This document shows, one piece after another, positions 9,298 through 40,377 of a DNA stretch of 64,000 bases; within the stretch, counting starts at the first letter, position 1, and each line of letters starts with the position of its first letter. Position numbers and translations under genes: made by a program. Source of the stretch: Halorhodospira halophila (GTDB taxonomy: Bacteria > Pseudomonadota > Gammaproteobacteria > Nitrococcales > Halorhodospiraceae); the NCBI RefSeq assembly GCF_016653405.1, contig NZ_NHSN01000002.1:1-64000 (forward strand), read 5' to 3'. The notes beneath the pieces were generated by a model, which worked only from the letters and a program-made list of their open reading frames with translations, was not told the origin of the DNA and did not search any database.

Positions 9298-9324
9298 CCA
9301 ATAGGCCGAGCGCCCTGCCCAGGG

Positions 9325-9762
9325 TCACCCCGAGGGGCGCACCCAGGCGGTGATCCCCACCATCCGCTCGATACGCACCCGATCGCCCGGACGCAGCTCC
9401 TGCCCGTCGGCCCCGCGCGCGGGGAAGACCTCGTCATCGACCAGCACTCCGATCCCCTGCCCCCGCCGAACCAGGACACCGCATCGTCCTGCATAGGCAT
9501 CGGCCGGGGCGACCATCCGGTGGGCGTAGGCCCCGGCAAAACGCTGCGCAAGGCGGTAACCGGTCGGCAGGAGGATCAGTGTGGTGACCAGATAGATCAG
9601 CAGCTGGTGAGAGACGGCCATGTCCGCCTTCACTGACGTCACCACCGCCAGAACGAAGGCGGCCACGGCCAGATCCACCAGGAACAGGTGACCACCGAAG
9701 AGAGCCGCTGTCACGAGTAGCAGGATGCCGCCGGCCAGCCAGATCCAGGATGGGTCGAACAT
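9325..9762 (-). CDS. NfeD-like membrane protein
   Basis: A 145-residue protein with hydrophobic segments at residues about 5-22, 27-45 and 53-70 and a C-terminal beta-rich OB-fold-like part (AGRCGVLVRRGQGIGVLVDDEVFPARG...), the layout of short NfeD/YbbK proteins. NfeD proteins usually partner stomatin/SPFH proteins, which are not found beside it here. The ATG at 9762 follows a GGAGGT site. The 3' end lies just beyond the Pho array that drives the neighbouring carrier, so it is a separate leftward gene whose transcript may run into that carrier. Confidence 0.75.
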   Translation of the reverse strand: MFDPSWIWLAGGILLLVTAALFGGHLFLVDLAVAAFVLAVVTSVKADMAVSHQLLIYLVTTLILLPTGYRLAQRFAGAYAHRMVAPADAYAGRCGVLVRRGQGIGVLVDDEVFPARGADGQELRPGDRVRIERMVGITAWVRPSG

Positions 9763-16970: not shown

Positions 16971-17026
16971 CCGTCATGCAAATGTCACGCGAACGGCATC
17001 GCCACGTCACGGCAGACTGCCAGGCT
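16971..17026 (+). promoter_or_regulatory. PhoB-type promoter for the small HTH gene
   Basis: Four half-sites repeat at exact 11-base pitch: CCGTCAT (16971-16977), ATGTCAC (16982-16988), ACGGCAT (16993-16999) and ACGTCAC (17004-17010). Ten bases later CAGGCT (17021-17026) can serve as the -10, the same spacing as in the other arrays here. This leaves a leader of about 45 bases before the ATG at 17079. Confidence 0.8.
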
Positions 17027-17078
17027 GCCGTCTAATCTGAATAGATCGACACGAAACGCACTCAAAGGAGATTCGACA

Positions 17079-17297
17079 ATGGCCCGCAAGAGCCCCACGG
17101 AGCTTTACCACACCGCGCTGCGCATGTACCGGCACGGCTGGACGATCGAGCAGATCGCCGACGAGCTGGCGATCCACCCGCAATCGCTGCGAACGTGGCT
17201 GACGGCCCCGGTGTATCCGGCTGCCCGCCGTAAGCACCCGACTCATGGCTACCCCGCAGAGCCCCGCCAAGTCAAACCCCAGCGGGCAGCACTCTGA
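17079..17297 (+). CDS. Small helix-turn-helix protein, predicted member of the Pho regulon
   Basis: A 72-residue basic protein. Residues about 6-44 form a helix-turn-helix of the homeodomain-like/transposase-HTH kind (MYRHGWTIEQIADELAIHPQSLRTWL); the remaining 28 residues are a Pro/Arg/Lys-rich tail with no clear fold. A consensus ribosome site (AAAGGAG) precedes the ATG. It has its own four-site PhoB-type promoter and lies just before the Pho-controlled ABC importer, which has a separate promoter. It could be a local regulator acting below PhoB. No transposase or other mobile-element trace adjoins it. The family is otherwise not recognised. Confidence 0.8.
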   Translation: MARKSPTELYHTALRMYRHGWTIEQIADELAIHPQSLRTWLTAPVYPAARRKHPTHGYPAEPRQVKPQRAAL

Positions 17298-17414
17298 TCT
17301 GACCCGCGCAGGGCGGACGATACGGCTGTCCGCCGCTCACCCCTCTCCTCACAGCACCCCCTGCCCCTAGCGCCGGCATACGCCGCGCGCCGTCTGTGCC
17401 CGCGTGCAAACAGC

Positions 17415-17481
17415 CCGCAACCGCAACGTCTTCCCACCGTTATCCGGCCGTAACCGAACCGCAACAAGCGGCTCCCATACT
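17415..17481 (+). promoter_or_regulatory. PhoB-type promoter for the ABC importer operon
   Basis: CCGTTAT (17437-17443), CCGTAAC (17448-17454) and CCGCAAC (17459-17465) are at 11-base pitch; in the same register a further CCGCAAC is at 17415-17421. CATACT (17476-17481) begins exactly 10 bases after the last site and fits a -10. The half-sites depart from CTGTCA at positions 2 and 5, so this is a somewhat weaker array than those of NptA or the pyruvate kinase. Confidence 0.72.
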
Positions 17482-17517
17482 GCCGCACTGTTCCCACCGC
17501 AACTGAACAGGTGCGCC

Positions 17518-18666
17518 ATGAGTCGACCCCAAACCTCCCGGCACGATGCCGCCCGCATCGGCCTTCCCAGCCCGGGCACGCGCAGCGCCGTGCTCGCCCT
17601 CATCGCCGGAGGTATCCTGATGACGGCGGGCTGCTCCGGCGACGAGGACGTCCCGACCGGCGCGATCGATGCCGATGACGTGGACGCCGGTCAGGTCGAG
17701 CTGCGCGACGACGTGCTCACCGTCTACCTCCACGACCACGGCGATGCCATCGCCGAGCGGTTTACCGACGACACCGGGATCCCGGTCCAGATCGTGGACA
17801 TGAGCGGCGGCGAGATCCTCGCCCGCATCGAGGCGGAGCGCGCCAACCCGCAGTGGGACGTGGTCTACGTCCAGGGCCACGGCAGCGTGAACCGCCTCTA
17901 CCAGGAGGGACAGCTCCTCGACGATGGCTGGCAGCCGGACAACGCGGCTCGCTACAACGACCTGGGCCGCCAGATCTACGACCAGGACCCGGATGCGGCG
18001 TGGTGGCCGGTCACCGTCAACGCCCCGGCGCTCCTGGTCTACAACCCGAACTGCGCCGACACGGAGCGGGTCGAGGAACTCGGCTGGGATGCCCTGCGCG
18101 ACCCGGCCTTCGAGGGCAAGGTCGGCATGCCCGACCCGGCCATCTCGGGCCCGGCCTACCCCTACGTGTCCTGGTTCTTCGAGGAGAGCATGGACGACGG
18201 CTACGCCTTCTGGGAGGACGTTTTCGACAACGGGGTCCGCATGTACCGCTCCAACAGCCCGGTGGCCGAAGCCCTGGCGGCCGGGGACATCTGCGTCGCC
18301 GGCCTTGAGGAGCCGAACACCTACGGCGAGGTGGAGAAGGACGCCGACATCGAGATCGTCTACCCCGCGGAGGGCACCCCCGGGGCCGCCCGCGCCACCG
18401 GGATCAGCGCCGACACCACCGTGGCCGATGACGCCCGGGCCTTCATCGAGTGGATGCTCGAGGCGGACACCCAGACCTATCTCACCCAGATCGAGCACCG
18501 CAACAAGTACTTCGTGCCGCTGGTCGAAGGCGCCGATCCCAACGAGCTGCTGCCGCCGAACGAGTTTCTCGACCGTGTGACCCCTTACGAGTTCACGGAC
18601 TACGAGTGGGCCGGCGACGTCGAGAACGAGATCAAGCAGTGGTTCGCCGACCAGTCGGGGTCGTGA
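17518..18666 (+). CDS. ABC importer substrate-binding lipoprotein (iron/2-aminoethylphosphonate type)
   Basis: A 382-residue exported protein. A long hydrophobic leader ends in the lipobox MTAGC, so the mature protein is probably a lipoprotein anchored at the outer face of the inner membrane. The rest resembles the periplasmic binding proteins of Fe3+ and 2-aminoethylphosphonate importers (VYLHDHGDAIAERFTDDTG; WPVTVNAPALLVYN; RSNSPVAEALAAGD). The acidic residue content is high. Its PhoB-type promoter favours a phosphorus compound over iron. Start at ATG 17518; a weak ribosome site. The ligand is not proven. Confidence 0.85.
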   Translation: MSRPQTSRHDAARIGLPSPGTRSAVLALIAGGILMTAGCSGDEDVPTGAIDADDVDAGQVELRDDVLTVYLHDHGDAIAERFTDDTGIPVQIVDMSGGEILARIEAERANPQWDVVYVQGHGSVNRLYQEGQLLDDGWQPDNAARYNDLGRQIYDQDPDAAWWPVTVNAPALLVYNPNCADTERVEELGWDALRDPAFEGKVGMPDPAISGPAYPYVSWFFEESMDDGYAFWEDVFDNGVRMYRSNSPVAEALAAGDICVAGLEEPNTYGEVEKDADIEIVYPAEGTPGAARATGISADTTVADDARAFIEWMLEADTQTYLTQIEHRNKYFVPLVEGADPNELLPPNEFLDRVTPYEFTDYEWAGDVENEIKQWFADQSGS

Positions 18667-18670
18667 GCCG

Positions 18671-20470
18671 GTGCAGGCAGCTCGACTCTCTCAGGTAGCA
18701 ACCAGCACCATCGCCCGGCAGGCGGCCCGCAGCGGGGCCGCATTGACCGGGCGGTGGCGCCGCCTTTCCGGCCCGGGGGACCGATCAGTGGCTTGGGCGG
18801 TGACGGCCGCCCTGATCGTTTTGGTCGGACTCCCGCTGGCCGCCATGCTGGCCCACCTGGCCTTCCCGCAGCTGTACCTGGGCAGCCTGCAACTCGGCAA
18901 TTTCGATCTGTTCAGCGACCTGTGGGAACGCAGCCTCTGGCGCAACGCGGTGCGCAACTCGCTGCTGCTCGGCCTTGGGACGATGGTCCTCGGCGCGGCC
19001 ATTGGCGTCGGACTCGCCTGGATGCGGCACCACTGGCGCTTCCCGGGATCGGGGTTGATCGACTTCTCCGCCTGGTTCGTCCTGGTGATGCCGTCGTTCA
19101 TCATCGCCCAGGGCTGGGTGCTCTTCGCACGCAGCGGCGGCACCGCCTCGCTGCTCGGCATCCCCTGGGCCGGGGACGTCATCTTCTCGTTGCCGGGGCT
19201 GATCCTGGTGATGAGCCTGGCCAACTTCCCGCTGGCCTACCTGGCCTTCAGCGCCGCGCTGCAGTGGGACGTCAGCCGGTACGAGCACGCCGCCCGGCTC
19301 TCCGGCGCGCGGCCGTGGACGGTTTTCCGCGCCATCCGGCTACCACTGCTCCTCCCGGCCCTGCTGGCCGCTGGCATCCTCGTCTTCGTGGATACCATCG
19401 GTGACTTCGGGCTGCCAGCCGCCTTCATCTCGGTGTTCCGTTTCCCGCTCATTCCCTACGTCATCCGCACCGAGATCCAGACCGTACCCGTGTCTTTTGA
19501 GGGGGCCGCCGTGCTGGCCGCGGTCCTGGTCTCGATGGTTGCCGTGGCGATCGCCATCCAGATCCGTGTGCTGCGCGGCGGCGGCCGGGATTTCCTCACC
19601 GCGGCGGCAACGCCGCGGCAGCGCCCCAGGCCCCGGTTCTGGCCGCTCCTCTCGGCGATCACCTTCGCGTTCCTCGGCCTGGCGGTCTTCGCCCCGCTGG
19701 GAACCAGCCTCTCCGTCTCGTTCATGGAGCGCTACGGGGCCGGCCTGAGCTGGGACAATCTCACCCTGGCCAACTACCAGGCCGTGCTATCCAGCGGCTC
19801 GGCCTTGCTGCCGGCGCTCAAGAACAGCTTCGGCATCGCCTTCGCCGCTGCCGCCATCGCCCTGGTCATTGGCTTCCTGGCGGCGTATCTGCTGGCCTAC
19901 AGCGGGCACCGGCTGCGGCGCTTTATCGATGTGGCCTCGACCGTCACCCTGGCAGTTCCCGGCATTGTTCTGGCCGTAGGCTACATCTTCTGGTGGAACC
20001 AGCGCTGGCTGGCCGACATCGGCATCCAGGTCTACGGCAGCGGCTGGGCGATTGCCCTGTGCTCGGCAGCGGCCTCGGTGCCCATCGCCGTGCGGGTTTT
20101 GCTCGGCGCCATGTCCCAGACGCCGGGATCGTTCCTGTCGAGCGCCGCACTCCAGGGAGCTGGCCTGTGGACGCGCATCCGCGCCATCCTCCTGCCGCTG
20201 ACCCTCTCCGGCCTGCTCTCCGCCGGCCTCGCTGTATTCGCCACCAGTGTCTTCGACCTGGCCATCACCACCATGCTACAGCCGCCGGGCTTCCCGACCA
20301 TCCCGGTGATCATCGACGAGCATTTCCGCACGGTGCAGTACGAATGGGCGACCGCCGCTACGGTCGTGGTCTGCCTGATCACCGCAGCGGTCATCGTCAC
20401 GGTCCGTTTCAGCGCCCGACGGCTGTTCCGTAGCTACTTCGAAACCACGACGGAGACATCACGATCATGA
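18671..20470 (+). CDS. ABC importer permease with two fused membrane domains
   Basis: A 599-residue permease with about 12 membrane segments and two BPD_transp_1 modules (residues about 90-290 and 370-580), each with an EAA-type loop (YEHAARLSGARPWTVFRAIRLPLL and FLSSAALQGAGLWTRIRAILLP). This double-permease form is typical of FbpB/AfuB and PhnU/V-like systems. It follows the binding protein by four bases and overlaps the ATPase gene by four, so the three form one translationally coupled operon. Confidence 0.92.
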   Translation: MQAARLSQVATSTIARQAARSGAALTGRWRRLSGPGDRSVAWAVTAALIVLVGLPLAAMLAHLAFPQLYLGSLQLGNFDLFSDLWERSLWRNAVRNSLLLGLGTMVLGAAIGVGLAWMRHHWRFPGSGLIDFSAWFVLVMPSFIIAQGWVLFARSGGTASLLGIPWAGDVIFSLPGLILVMSLANFPLAYLAFSAALQWDVSRYEHAARLSGARPWTVFRAIRLPLLLPALLAAGILVFVDTIGDFGLPAAFISVFRFPLIPYVIRTEIQTVPVSFEGAAVLAAVLVSMVAVAIAIQIRVLRGGGRDFLTAAATPRQRPRPRFWPLLSAITFAFLGLAVFAPLGTSLSVSFMERYGAGLSWDNLTLANYQAVLSSGSALLPALKNSFGIAFAAAAIALVIGFLAAYLLAYSGHRLRRFIDVASTVTLAVPGIVLAVGYIFWWNQRWLADIGIQVYGSGWAIALCSAAASVPIAVRVLLGAMSQTPGSFLSSAALQGAGLWTRIRAILLPLTLSGLLSAGLAVFATSVFDLAITTMLQPPGFPTIPVIIDEHFRTVQYEWATAATVVVCLITAAVIVTVRFSARRLFRSYFETTTETSRS

Positions 20471-21639
20471 CCACGACGAAACCCGCCAACCGGGCACAGG
20501 CCGCCGGCGTGGAGGTGGACGCCGTCAGCCGCCACTTCGACGGGGTCCCGGCGCTGGGACAGGCCTCCCTGAACATCCACCCCGGCGAGGTAATCGCCAT
20601 CCTCGGCCCTTCCGGTTGCGGGAAGTCCACGCTGCTTCGCCTGATCGCCGGGCTCGACACGCCCAGCGCGGGGGCCATCCGCATCGGCGGCCGGTGCGTA
20701 TCCCGGCCCGGCGCCGTCGTTCCGCCCGAGCAGCGCCCCGTGAACATGGTCTTCCAGGACTTCGCCCTGTGGCCGCACATGACCGTGGAGCGCATTGTCC
20801 GCTTCGGTATGCGTCATCGCGGTGTGCCCAAGGCCGTGTGGGCTTCGCGCACGGCGGAGCTGCTCGGCATGCTCGGCCTGGACGGGATGGCACAGCGCTA
20901 CCCGCGCCAGCTCTCCGGCGGGCAGCAACAGCGGGTGGCCATCGCACGCGCGCTGGCCACGGACCCGCAGGTGCTTCTGTTCGATGAGCCCCTGTCCAAC
21001 CTCGATGCCCAGCTGCGGATCCAGATGCGCATCGAGCTCGCCGAGCTGCTGCAGCGGCTCGAGACCACTGCCATTTACGTCACCCACGATATCCACGAGG
21101 CGGTCGCCCTAGGGCACCGGCTGGTGGTCATGCGCGGCGGTCAGGTCGAGCAGGTGGGCTCGGCGAAGGAGGTCTTCCAGTCGCCGTCGAACGCCTGGAT
21201 TGCCGGCCTGGTGGGCTACAACAACCAGCTGCAGGCCGAGATCGTCGGCCACGATGGCGAAGGCCGCCTCAGCGTCCGCAGCGGCGGCACGCACATGACG
21301 GTTCGCGGCCATGCCCGGGGCGAGCCCCGCGGCACTGGAGCCACGGTCCGCATCCGTCCGGAAGCCATCCGTCCGCTGCGCGCGGACGAGCCAGCACGCG
21401 CCGACGAGCAGCTGGTCACGGCCACCGTGGAGCAGTGCTGTTTCGAGGGTTACCACTGGCGGGTGGTATGCCGCCTCGGCGATGAGCCGCTGACGTTCTT
21501 TTCCCGCCATCCGCTGGACGCCGCCGGCCCCGTGCAGCTGGCCATCGATACCGAAGGGACCTGCGCCTACAGCGACGAGCCAACCGCTGCCAACTCCGCC
21601 CCGGAAGGCGCCGCAGACTGCCAGCTGCGGACAGCCTGA
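20467..21639 (+). CDS. ABC importer ATPase (FbpC/PhnT-like)
   Basis: A 390-residue ATP-binding subunit. Walker A is GPSGCGKST (residues about 48-56), the signature is [15 protein letters not shown], Walker B is [12 protein letters not shown], and the H-loop is YVTHD. A TOBE-like domain (residues about 280-365) forms the C-terminus. It powers import by the double permease. It starts in an ATGA overlap with the permease. The substrate group is shared between Fe3+, 2-aminoethylphosphonate and related compounds; the Pho-type promoter supports a phosphorus source. Confidence 0.92.
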
Positions 21640-21652
21640 CGCCGGCGGATCA

Positions 21653-21708
21653 CTGTCATCCCCGGCTCACGCAGCCATCACGACCCTGCAACATGGCCCC
21701 CGCAGACT
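21653..21708 (+). promoter_or_regulatory. PhoB-type promoter for the GT4-PAP2-arsC operon
   Basis: Half-sites CTGTCAT (21653-21659), GGCTCAC (21664-21670), CCATCAC (21675-21681) and CTGCAAC (21686-21692) are all at 11-base pitch. CAGACT (21703-21708) begins 10 bases after the last one, the same hexamer and spacing as at pstS. A start of transcription near 21715 would fall almost on the ATG at 21717. Confidence 0.78.
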
Positions 21709-21718
21709 CGGGGGCCAT
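21693..21718 (+). promoter_or_regulatory. Hairpin covering the glycosyltransferase start
   Basis: ATGGCCCCCG (21693-21702) and CGGGGGCCAT (21709-21718) are exact complements around CAGACT. It may end read-through from the ABC operon upstream, or, in longer transcripts, hide the start codon at 21717. Its loop is the proposed -10 hexamer. Confidence 0.5.
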
Positions 21719-22922
21719 GAGCAAAAAGATCTTACCCCCGCCCGCCCCATTGCAACGCGTGAGCATCGTGTCCGAAACCTACGCCCCGGAAGCCAACGGG
21801 GTGGCCACGACGCTCTCGCACCTGGTCGCCGGTTTGAGACAGGACACGACCCGGGTTGACCTGATCGTGCCCCACCACCCGGCGCGTCCACGCGGCCAGG
21901 AGACCAACCTCTACCCGGTCTGCGGCGTTTCGATACCGGGCTACCGGGAGGTCCGTTGCGGCCTCGTCCGCCCCCGCCTCCTCGAAGAGCTCTGGCGCAG
22001 CCAAAGACCGGACGCCGTCTATATCGCCACGGAAGGGCCCCTGGGCTGGTCGGCGCAGCGGGCGGCGGCCCGCCTGCGCCTACCCACCGTCAGCGGCTTC
22101 CACACGCGCTTCGATACCTACGCCAGCCACTACGGGCTCGGCCCGCTGAACGGGGCCGTCCAGCGCTACCTGCGCCGATTCCACAATCGAACCGACCGGA
22201 CACTGGTTCCTGAAACCCGCTTGGCCGAGGCACTGACCGAGCGGGGCTACCGGAACGTCGAGACCCTCGGCCGGGGGGTCGACACCCACCGCTTCCACCC
22301 GGACCGGCGCTCGGCCACGTTGCGCGCTGGCTGGGGAGCCGATGACCGTGCCCCGGTTCTGCTCTATGTCGGGCGTCTGGCCGCGGAGAAGAACCTAGGC
22401 CTGGCCGTCGAGGCGTTCCGCCATATCCAGCACGTACAGCCGGCGGCAAGACTGGTACTTGTCGGCGACGGCCCGATGCGCGCGGAACTCCAGCGTCAGC
22501 ACCCGGATCTGATCTTCGCCGGTGTGCGCCGCGGCGCGGACCTCGCCCGCTATTACGCCTCGGCGGATCTGTTCCTCTTCCCCAGCCTGAGCGAGACCTT
22601 CGGCAACGTGACGCTCGAGGCACTGGCCAGCGGGGTGCCAGTCATCGCCTTCGACTACGCCGCTGCCCATCGCCACGTCGAGGACGCCGTCAGTGGCCGC
22701 CTTGTTGCCCGGGACGACCCCGGCGGCTGGATCGAGGCCGCCGTCGGATCCGCGCTCCTCGCTCCGGAAACCCGCCAGCGCTGGCAAAAGGCCGCCCGCG
22801 CCGAGGTTGAATCCCTGAGTTGGCAACACGTCGCTCGGCGTTTCGGCCACATCCTGGCCGAGGCCGTGCGGGGACACGATGGCCTGAACCGAGGAGGGGT
22901 CACGCTATGCAGCAAGCCCTGA
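21717..22922 (+). CDS. GT4 glycosyltransferase, probable glycolipid synthase of the phosphate-stress response
   Basis: A 401-residue GT-B glycosyltransferase. The N-terminal motif ETYAPEANGVATTL and the C-terminal E-x7-E motif (SETFGNVTLEAL) place it in family GT4, close in layout to SqdX and to lipid mannosyl/glucosyltransferases. It should transfer a sugar from a nucleotide donor, probably to diacylglycerol. The four-site PhoB-type promoter and the downstream PAP2 phosphatase support membrane lipid replacement in phosphate starvation. ATG 21717 is proposed; GTG 21759 (giving MSIVSETYAPEANG) is an alternative. Donor and acceptor are inferred, not seen. Confidence 0.82.
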   Translation: MSKKILPPPAPLQRVSIVSETYAPEANGVATTLSHLVAGLRQDTTRVDLIVPHHPARPRGQETNLYPVCGVSIPGYREVRCGLVRPRLLEELWRSQRPDAVYIATEGPLGWSAQRAAARLRLPTVSGFHTRFDTYASHYGLGPLNGAVQRYLRRFHNRTDRTLVPETRLAEALTERGYRNVETLGRGVDTHRFHPDRRSATLRAGWGADDRAPVLLYVGRLAAEKNLGLAVEAFRHIQHVQPAARLVLVGDGPMRAELQRQHPDLIFAGVRRGADLARYYASADLFLFPSLSETFGNVTLEALASGVPVIAFDYAAAHRHVEDAVSGRLVARDDPGGWIEAAVGSALLAPETRQRWQKAARAEVESLSWQHVARRFGHILAEAVRGHDGLNRGGVTLCSKP

Positions 22923-40262: not shown

Positions 40263-40307
40263 AGGCTAACCCCGCGCGGTGACAGCCGCGTGACAGGCCG
40301 GTGACGT
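40263..40307 (-). promoter_or_regulatory. Near-consensus PhoB promoter for the pyruvate kinase-like gene
   Basis: On the minus strand ACGTCAC (40307-40301), CTGTCAC (40296-40290) and CTGTCAC (40285-40279) repeat at 11-base pitch; TAGCCT (40268-40263) begins exactly 10 bases after the last. Transcription would begin near 40256, only a few bases before the ATG at 40252. Confidence 0.87.
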
Positions 40308-40377
40308 CCCGGACATCGTCCCACCGCTGGTGCTGCTCCTGAACCGGTCCCCGGTGCCATCGCTAGCCGCAGCCCGT

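Follow-up and report, generated by a model that had tools for sequence, protein, structure and literature searches.

Second-tier regulators of phosphate starvation are known in bacteria. In Synechococcus WH8102, PtrA is such a regulator and belongs to the CRP family (PMC4415409). The helix-turn-helix (HTH) protein described here, encoded in a 64,000-nucleotide stretch of Halorhodospira halophila (the window), is likened to PtrA because it, too, is proposed to act next to PhoR-PhoB as a second regulatory layer. It differs from PtrA in being a lone HTH of 72 residues with no sensor domain, and in coming from another phylum. No described bare HTH of 55-76 residues was found among the second-tier Pho regulators. 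Literature searches for small HTH proteins or cascade members in the Pho regulon, and for Halorhodospira, yielded no description of it; a search for domesticated transposases as bacterial regulators yielded nothing relevant.

Other described proteins resemble the HTH itself. The top Foldseek match is to the serine recombinases (Sin, gamma-delta and Tn3 resolvase), which also combine a three-helix HTH with an N-terminal extension; there the HTH ends a recombinase, whereas here it stands alone, and the E-values are 0.06 and weaker. SIRV1 ORF55 (PDB 2x48), with about 55 residues, is likewise a three-helix HTH that stands alone; identity is 28% over 39-43 residues and the rmsd 0.8-1.6. However, it is an archaeal virus protein, and the match is weak (Foldseek E 0.12, Z 5.0) and lends no support to common descent. 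The HTH of the IS3-type transposase protein OrfA, seen in the actinobacterial loci L084, L088 and L091, shares the helix order and the sequence of helices 2 and 3 (IADxLGIHPEALRTW against IADELAIHPQSLRTW). OrfA is nevertheless longer (about 100-118 residues) and contains a further helical region, whereas the gene of the window is a single copy with a Pho promoter, no OrfB in the annotated neighbourhood and no flanking terminal repeats found.

The Pho-type promoter and its background

The promoter of the HTH gene (Table 1) has the layout of the pstS promoters of the same order, namely half-sites, ten bases and a -10 element. In those promoters the -10 element, usually CATACT, begins 17 bases downstream of the first base of half-site 4. 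The model used for scoring comprises four half-sites and a -10 hexamer and derives from 23 pstS promoters of the order, with no HTH promoter included. Its half-site seed matrix, made of textbook E. coli PhoB sites, was a starting point only; the choice of the training sites with this matrix creates a bias towards Pho-like sites, not towards HTH promoters. The HTH promoter scores 23.7, against 11.9 for the best of 1000 dinucleotide shuffles, none of which reaches its score. A model trained only outside the window's family (f1) places the promoter at this position too, with a score of 24.4. As a -10 hexamer CAGGCT is poor, and the better TAATCT is kept as TAnnCT in the window and in genomes G006 and G007; either of the two may serve as the -10 element. 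The earlier note had described a 72-residue HTH gene with a four-site Pho promoter, CAGGCT at ten bases and a strong ribosome binding site, and all of this stands, weak as the hexamer is.

Table 1. Position of the HTH gene and of the sequence elements around it in the window.
Feature	Position	Strand	Description
Pho box	16971..17010	+	Four PhoB-type half-sites, exact 11-bp spacing (sequence; pstS-trained model)
Half-site 1	16971-16977	+	CCGTCAT
Half-site 2	16982-16988	+	ATGTCAC
Half-site 3	16993-16999	+	ACGGCAT
Half-site 4	17004-17010	+	ACGTCAC
Imperfect palindrome	17009..17031	.	ACGGCAGACTG-C-CAGGCTGCCGT; overlaps half-site 4 and -10; possible operator, weak lead
-10 element	17021..17026	+	CAGGCT; 10 bases past half-site 4, in the register of CATACT of pstS promoters
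Alternative, better -10 element	17033..17038	+	TAATCT; about one helical turn downstream of CAGGCT
Ribosome binding site	17064..17070	+	AAAGGAG; 8 bases before the ATG of the HTH gene
HTH gene	17079..17297	+	ATG start; 72 aa; arm MARKSP, residues 1-6; HTH, residues 6-42; basic disordered tail, residues 45-72
Hairpin	17312..17334	+	GGCGGAC...GTCCGCC; just past the HTH stop codon; also 3' of the G006 orthologue
Pho-type promoter of the AEP-type importer operon	17426..17481	+	Score 26.5

The same promoter precedes 14 of the 16 orthologues, over three families, and in each case none of 1000 shuffles equals its score with the pstS-trained model. At the G043 orthologue there are two good half-sites and a TACGCT in register, with an overall score matched by 36 of 1000 shuffles. 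The G037 orthologue shows no Pho promoter in the 116 bases up to the contig end; its HTH has changes at positions that are constant in the other sequences (IADIPGLDPQS..., with the tryptophan missing), which suggests that this copy is decaying. PhoB itself is encoded in the same window (G000:C2:34305-34982; 348.4 bits against a family cut-off of 296.2). Membership of the HTH gene in the Pho regulon, as the earlier note had proposed, thus gains support beyond the window, and judging from its promoter the gene belongs to the regulon in all likelihood.

Pho-type scores of at least 18 are found in the window at the HTH gene, the importer (17426), a glycosyltransferase (21653), phnD (40378), pstS and pstC, and also near the start of a pyruvate kinase gene (40263, minus strand). 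In the collected loci, 18 of 228 gene upstreams score at least 5 with the non-f1 model; sorted by neighbour annotation, ten belong to pst, phn, phoB, importer or phoB-divergent genes, six to HTH genes and two to others. The promoter at the pyruvate kinase gene (40263-40318, minus strand; score 18.8) may drive this PRK14725-like gene (38351-about 40252, minus strand), a putative assignment as the start codon is uncertain. Another, with a score of 29.0 (21653-21708, plus strand), overlaps the start of a GT4 glycosyltransferase gene (21693-22922) whose product resembles N-acetylglucosaminyl phosphatidylglycerol synthase. A PAP2-type phosphatase gene comes next, and a lipid change in phosphate starvation is possible for this pair. 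A conserved gene divergent from phoB also has a Pho-type promoter (L033 1798 and L034 1759, both minus strand; scores 14.3 and 13.3, in G005 and G001).

Two candidate autoregulatory operators of the HTH gene were considered and rejected. The palindrome ACGGCA-N11-TGCCGT occurs at the HTH promoter in three genomes only and at one unrelated site, and a reversed control gives similar numbers; the outer arms of the palindrome are kept only in the window, G004 and G006. The conserved leader GTCTAnnCTnAAnAGATCGA has a single occurrence in the genome. Neither the leader element nor the palindrome is repeated at other Pho genes as a target site for the HTH protein.

The protein and its orthologues

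A genome search finds the HTH gene in single copy, without a paralogue. The protein narrowly passes the gathering score of Pfam HTH_23 (PF13384; 24.9 against 24.6 bits), a generic HTH match that is uninformative on function. Beyond it, searches of curated families give generic HTH models only, all below their cut-offs, and no curated family covers the protein. AlphaFold2, applied to nine sequences, predicts three helices (residues 6-18, 23-30 and 34-42) at about 90 pLDDT and disorder after residue 45. The protein and its orthologues are basic, with a net charge of +1 to +7 and a pI of 8.3-11.9.

The 16 orthologues, of 55-76 residues, come from three families of one order, which consists mostly of salt- and soda-loving bacteria. 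Six are from the genus (G000, G001, G004, G005, G006 and G007), one from another genus of the window's family (G010), eight from family f2 (G022, G027, G031, G033, G035, G037, G039 and G043) and one from f4 (G020). The arm MARKSP is the most conserved stretch, with R3 and P6 invariant in all 15 distinct aligned sequences, and the surface positions of the recognition helix differ between clades. Over residues 1-44, dN/dS is 0.07-0.19 in seven of eight pairs and 0.44 in the eighth; the orthologues are under purifying selection. The gene is missing from three of nine genus genomes (G002, G003 and G008) and from six of 14 f2 genomes, all with pstS and phoB matches, and is therefore dispensable. 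Its dispensability, the variable surface of the recognition helix and the failure to find a target site at other Pho genes are all counted against a regulatory role.

Every stand-alone relative that was found belongs to the order. Searches of 369 genomes of the class and 398 of the phylum, in which 15-17 candidates were scored per genome, gave weak matches only, mostly within longer reading frames. Pattern scanning across 84,980 species genomes found the MARKSP type in Ectothiorhodospiraceae only; its other matches are IS3 OrfA-like proteins of Actinobacteria. PHROGs returned weak generic HTH matches only. The earlier note had allowed that homologues might turn up merely as pieces of transposases or prophages; within the order the orthologues are stand-alone genes, and no relative was found in viral contigs.

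Beyond the order, the most similar sequences are OrfA HTHs of the IS3 type from Actinobacteria, and the gene could be read as a functionless leftover of such a transposase, with a promoter that resembles a Pho box by chance. This is extremely improbable in view of the purifying selection, the conserved length and start and the shared Pho promoter, as well as the lack of the IS3 hallmarks already mentioned (further copies, terminal repeats, OrfB). Moreover, the next gene encodes a solute-binding protein, and the NCBIfam IS3 transposase model scores 13.9 bits against a cut-off of 160. The resemblance to OrfA is a lead on origin only.

The structural neighbours of the model are DNA-binding HTHs, e.g. 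resolvases, Tc3, LsrR and SIRV1 ORF55, and also chains of sigma domain 4. Assignment to a family by fold was dropped, the matches being weak (best Foldseek E 0.06, best Z 5.6). A protein of this kind might bind RNA polymerase, a sigma factor or PhoB rather than specific DNA, for instance as a look-alike of sigma region 4, and so tune the strength of the Pho response. The sigma domain 4 chains, the presence of Sigma70_r4_2 among the better Pfam matches (E 1.4e-4) and the strong conservation of the arm beside a varying DNA-facing helix surface agree with such a partner. Nevertheless, Sigma70_r4_2 (PF08281) reaches 21.9 bits against a curated gathering cut-off of 25.7, and the same generic resemblance extends to many HTHs; we regard this explanation as unlikely.

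The high pI, the basic tail and the variable recognition surface would also suit a nucleoid-type or otherwise non-specific DNA binder that, for example, compacts or protects DNA at growth arrest during starvation. Nucleoid proteins are usually oligomeric, whereas the protein has only one three-helix unit, and its conserved arm suggests a defined contact, which makes this role quite unlikely.

Surroundings of the gene

The HTH gene has different neighbours in different lineages, as far as can be told from gene calls made with a simple ORF and GC3 heuristic. In the window it is flanked by an ATP-grasp gene and the AEP-type importer, in G001 and G005 by phoU/pst and lpxD, and in G007 by a pair of hybrid histidine kinases; in G010 it adjoins HiPIP and aminopeptidase genes. 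Eight f2 genomes have it beside cydABDC or cydDC (cydDC in G031). The conserved unit is the HTH gene with its promoter, not the surroundings. The gene-neighbourhood analysis that the earlier note had proposed consequently undoes its argument for a regulator from the position beside a Pho importer, since that adjacency is not conserved.

The importer of the window (17404-21639, plus strand) consists of a solute-binding protein, a fused double permease and an ATPase and resembles the 2-aminoethylphosphonate (AEP) transporters PhnS2, PhnU2 and PhnT2; it is below all equivalog cut-offs for these and is AEP-type by resemblance. A separate Pho-type promoter makes it independent of the HTH promoter. 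G006 has a remnant of the gene for its solute-binding protein 3' of the HTH gene (L031, about 9306-9635). The HTH gene remains there with its Pho promoter; this lineage has therefore lost the importer but not the HTH gene. A functional link to the importer was rejected on these grounds and on the variation of the neighbours.

A role as regulator or leader of the cyd operon is also unlikely, as cydA has its own TATACT/TATAAT promoter-like sequences behind the HTH gene, e.g. CTATATACTGG. No Pho promoter is seen at cydA genes that do not adjoin an HTH gene; hence it is the HTH gene that the promoter accompanies. The wider possibility that the protein locally regulates its neighbour, the importer in the window and the cytochrome bd oxidase genes in f2, finds some encouragement in the cyd adjacency of the eight f2 genomes. 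The change of neighbours between families, the survival of the gene beside the importer remnant, the promoter-like sequences of cydA and the importer's own Pho-type promoter render it very unlikely.

On the other side of the f2 HTH gene there is often a LuxR-type response regulator (L036, L038, L041 and L043), accompanied in L041 by a PAS histidine kinase. In G033 an apparent insertion (L037, 2014-2340) separates the HTH gene from cydA; its ends, AAGGAAACACTGATTTATTCCC and GGGAATAAATCAGTGTTTCCTT, are inverted copies, and it looks like a small mobile element. The HTH gene of the window is probably transcribed alone. The hairpin just past its stop codon probably marks where this transcript ends, but it was rejected as a typical terminator, as it is without a T-run and the surrounding 96-nt stretch folds no better than shuffles.

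A candidate second layer of the Pho response

In all probability the HTH protein genuinely contributes to the response to phosphate starvation, as an uncharacterised helper. The reading that we favour, with moderate confidence and on the strength of the promoter and its joint retention with the gene, the purifying selection and the predicted fold, is that of a PhoB-induced second-tier DNA-binding regulator; the fold and the charge of the protein suit such a role. Under low phosphate, phosphorylated PhoB would occupy the four half-sites and recruit RNA polymerase, which would give a short one-gene transcript. The product would be a minimal basic DNA-binding protein, made up of the three-helix HTH, the arginine-bearing N-terminal arm and the disordered basic tail. 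The conserved arm probably reaches into the DNA. Comparable N-terminal arms are present in resolvase-type and homeodomain-like HTHs, a likeness that points to DNA binding in which the arm occupies the minor groove. As a point against this reading, the protein has no dimerisation or sensor domain and as a monomer may therefore bind specific sites weakly. Subsequently, the bound protein would alter the expression of further genes during phosphate starvation.

As to origin, it is a tentative and rather doubtful idea that the order possesses its own family of minimal regulators, each working as a single 40-residue HTH plus arm, with neither sensor nor dimer domain. On this view they would stem from the DNA-binding part of an IS3-type transposase, and their capture by PhoB would have created a second layer of the response to phosphate starvation.

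The gene and its Pho promoter persist among changing neighbours, and this justifies a direct test of function, which is practicable for a short, single-copy gene that probably forms its own transcript. If the protein is regulatory, it would show with how little protein an old regulon can gain a further layer, and that transposases may be the source of such pieces.
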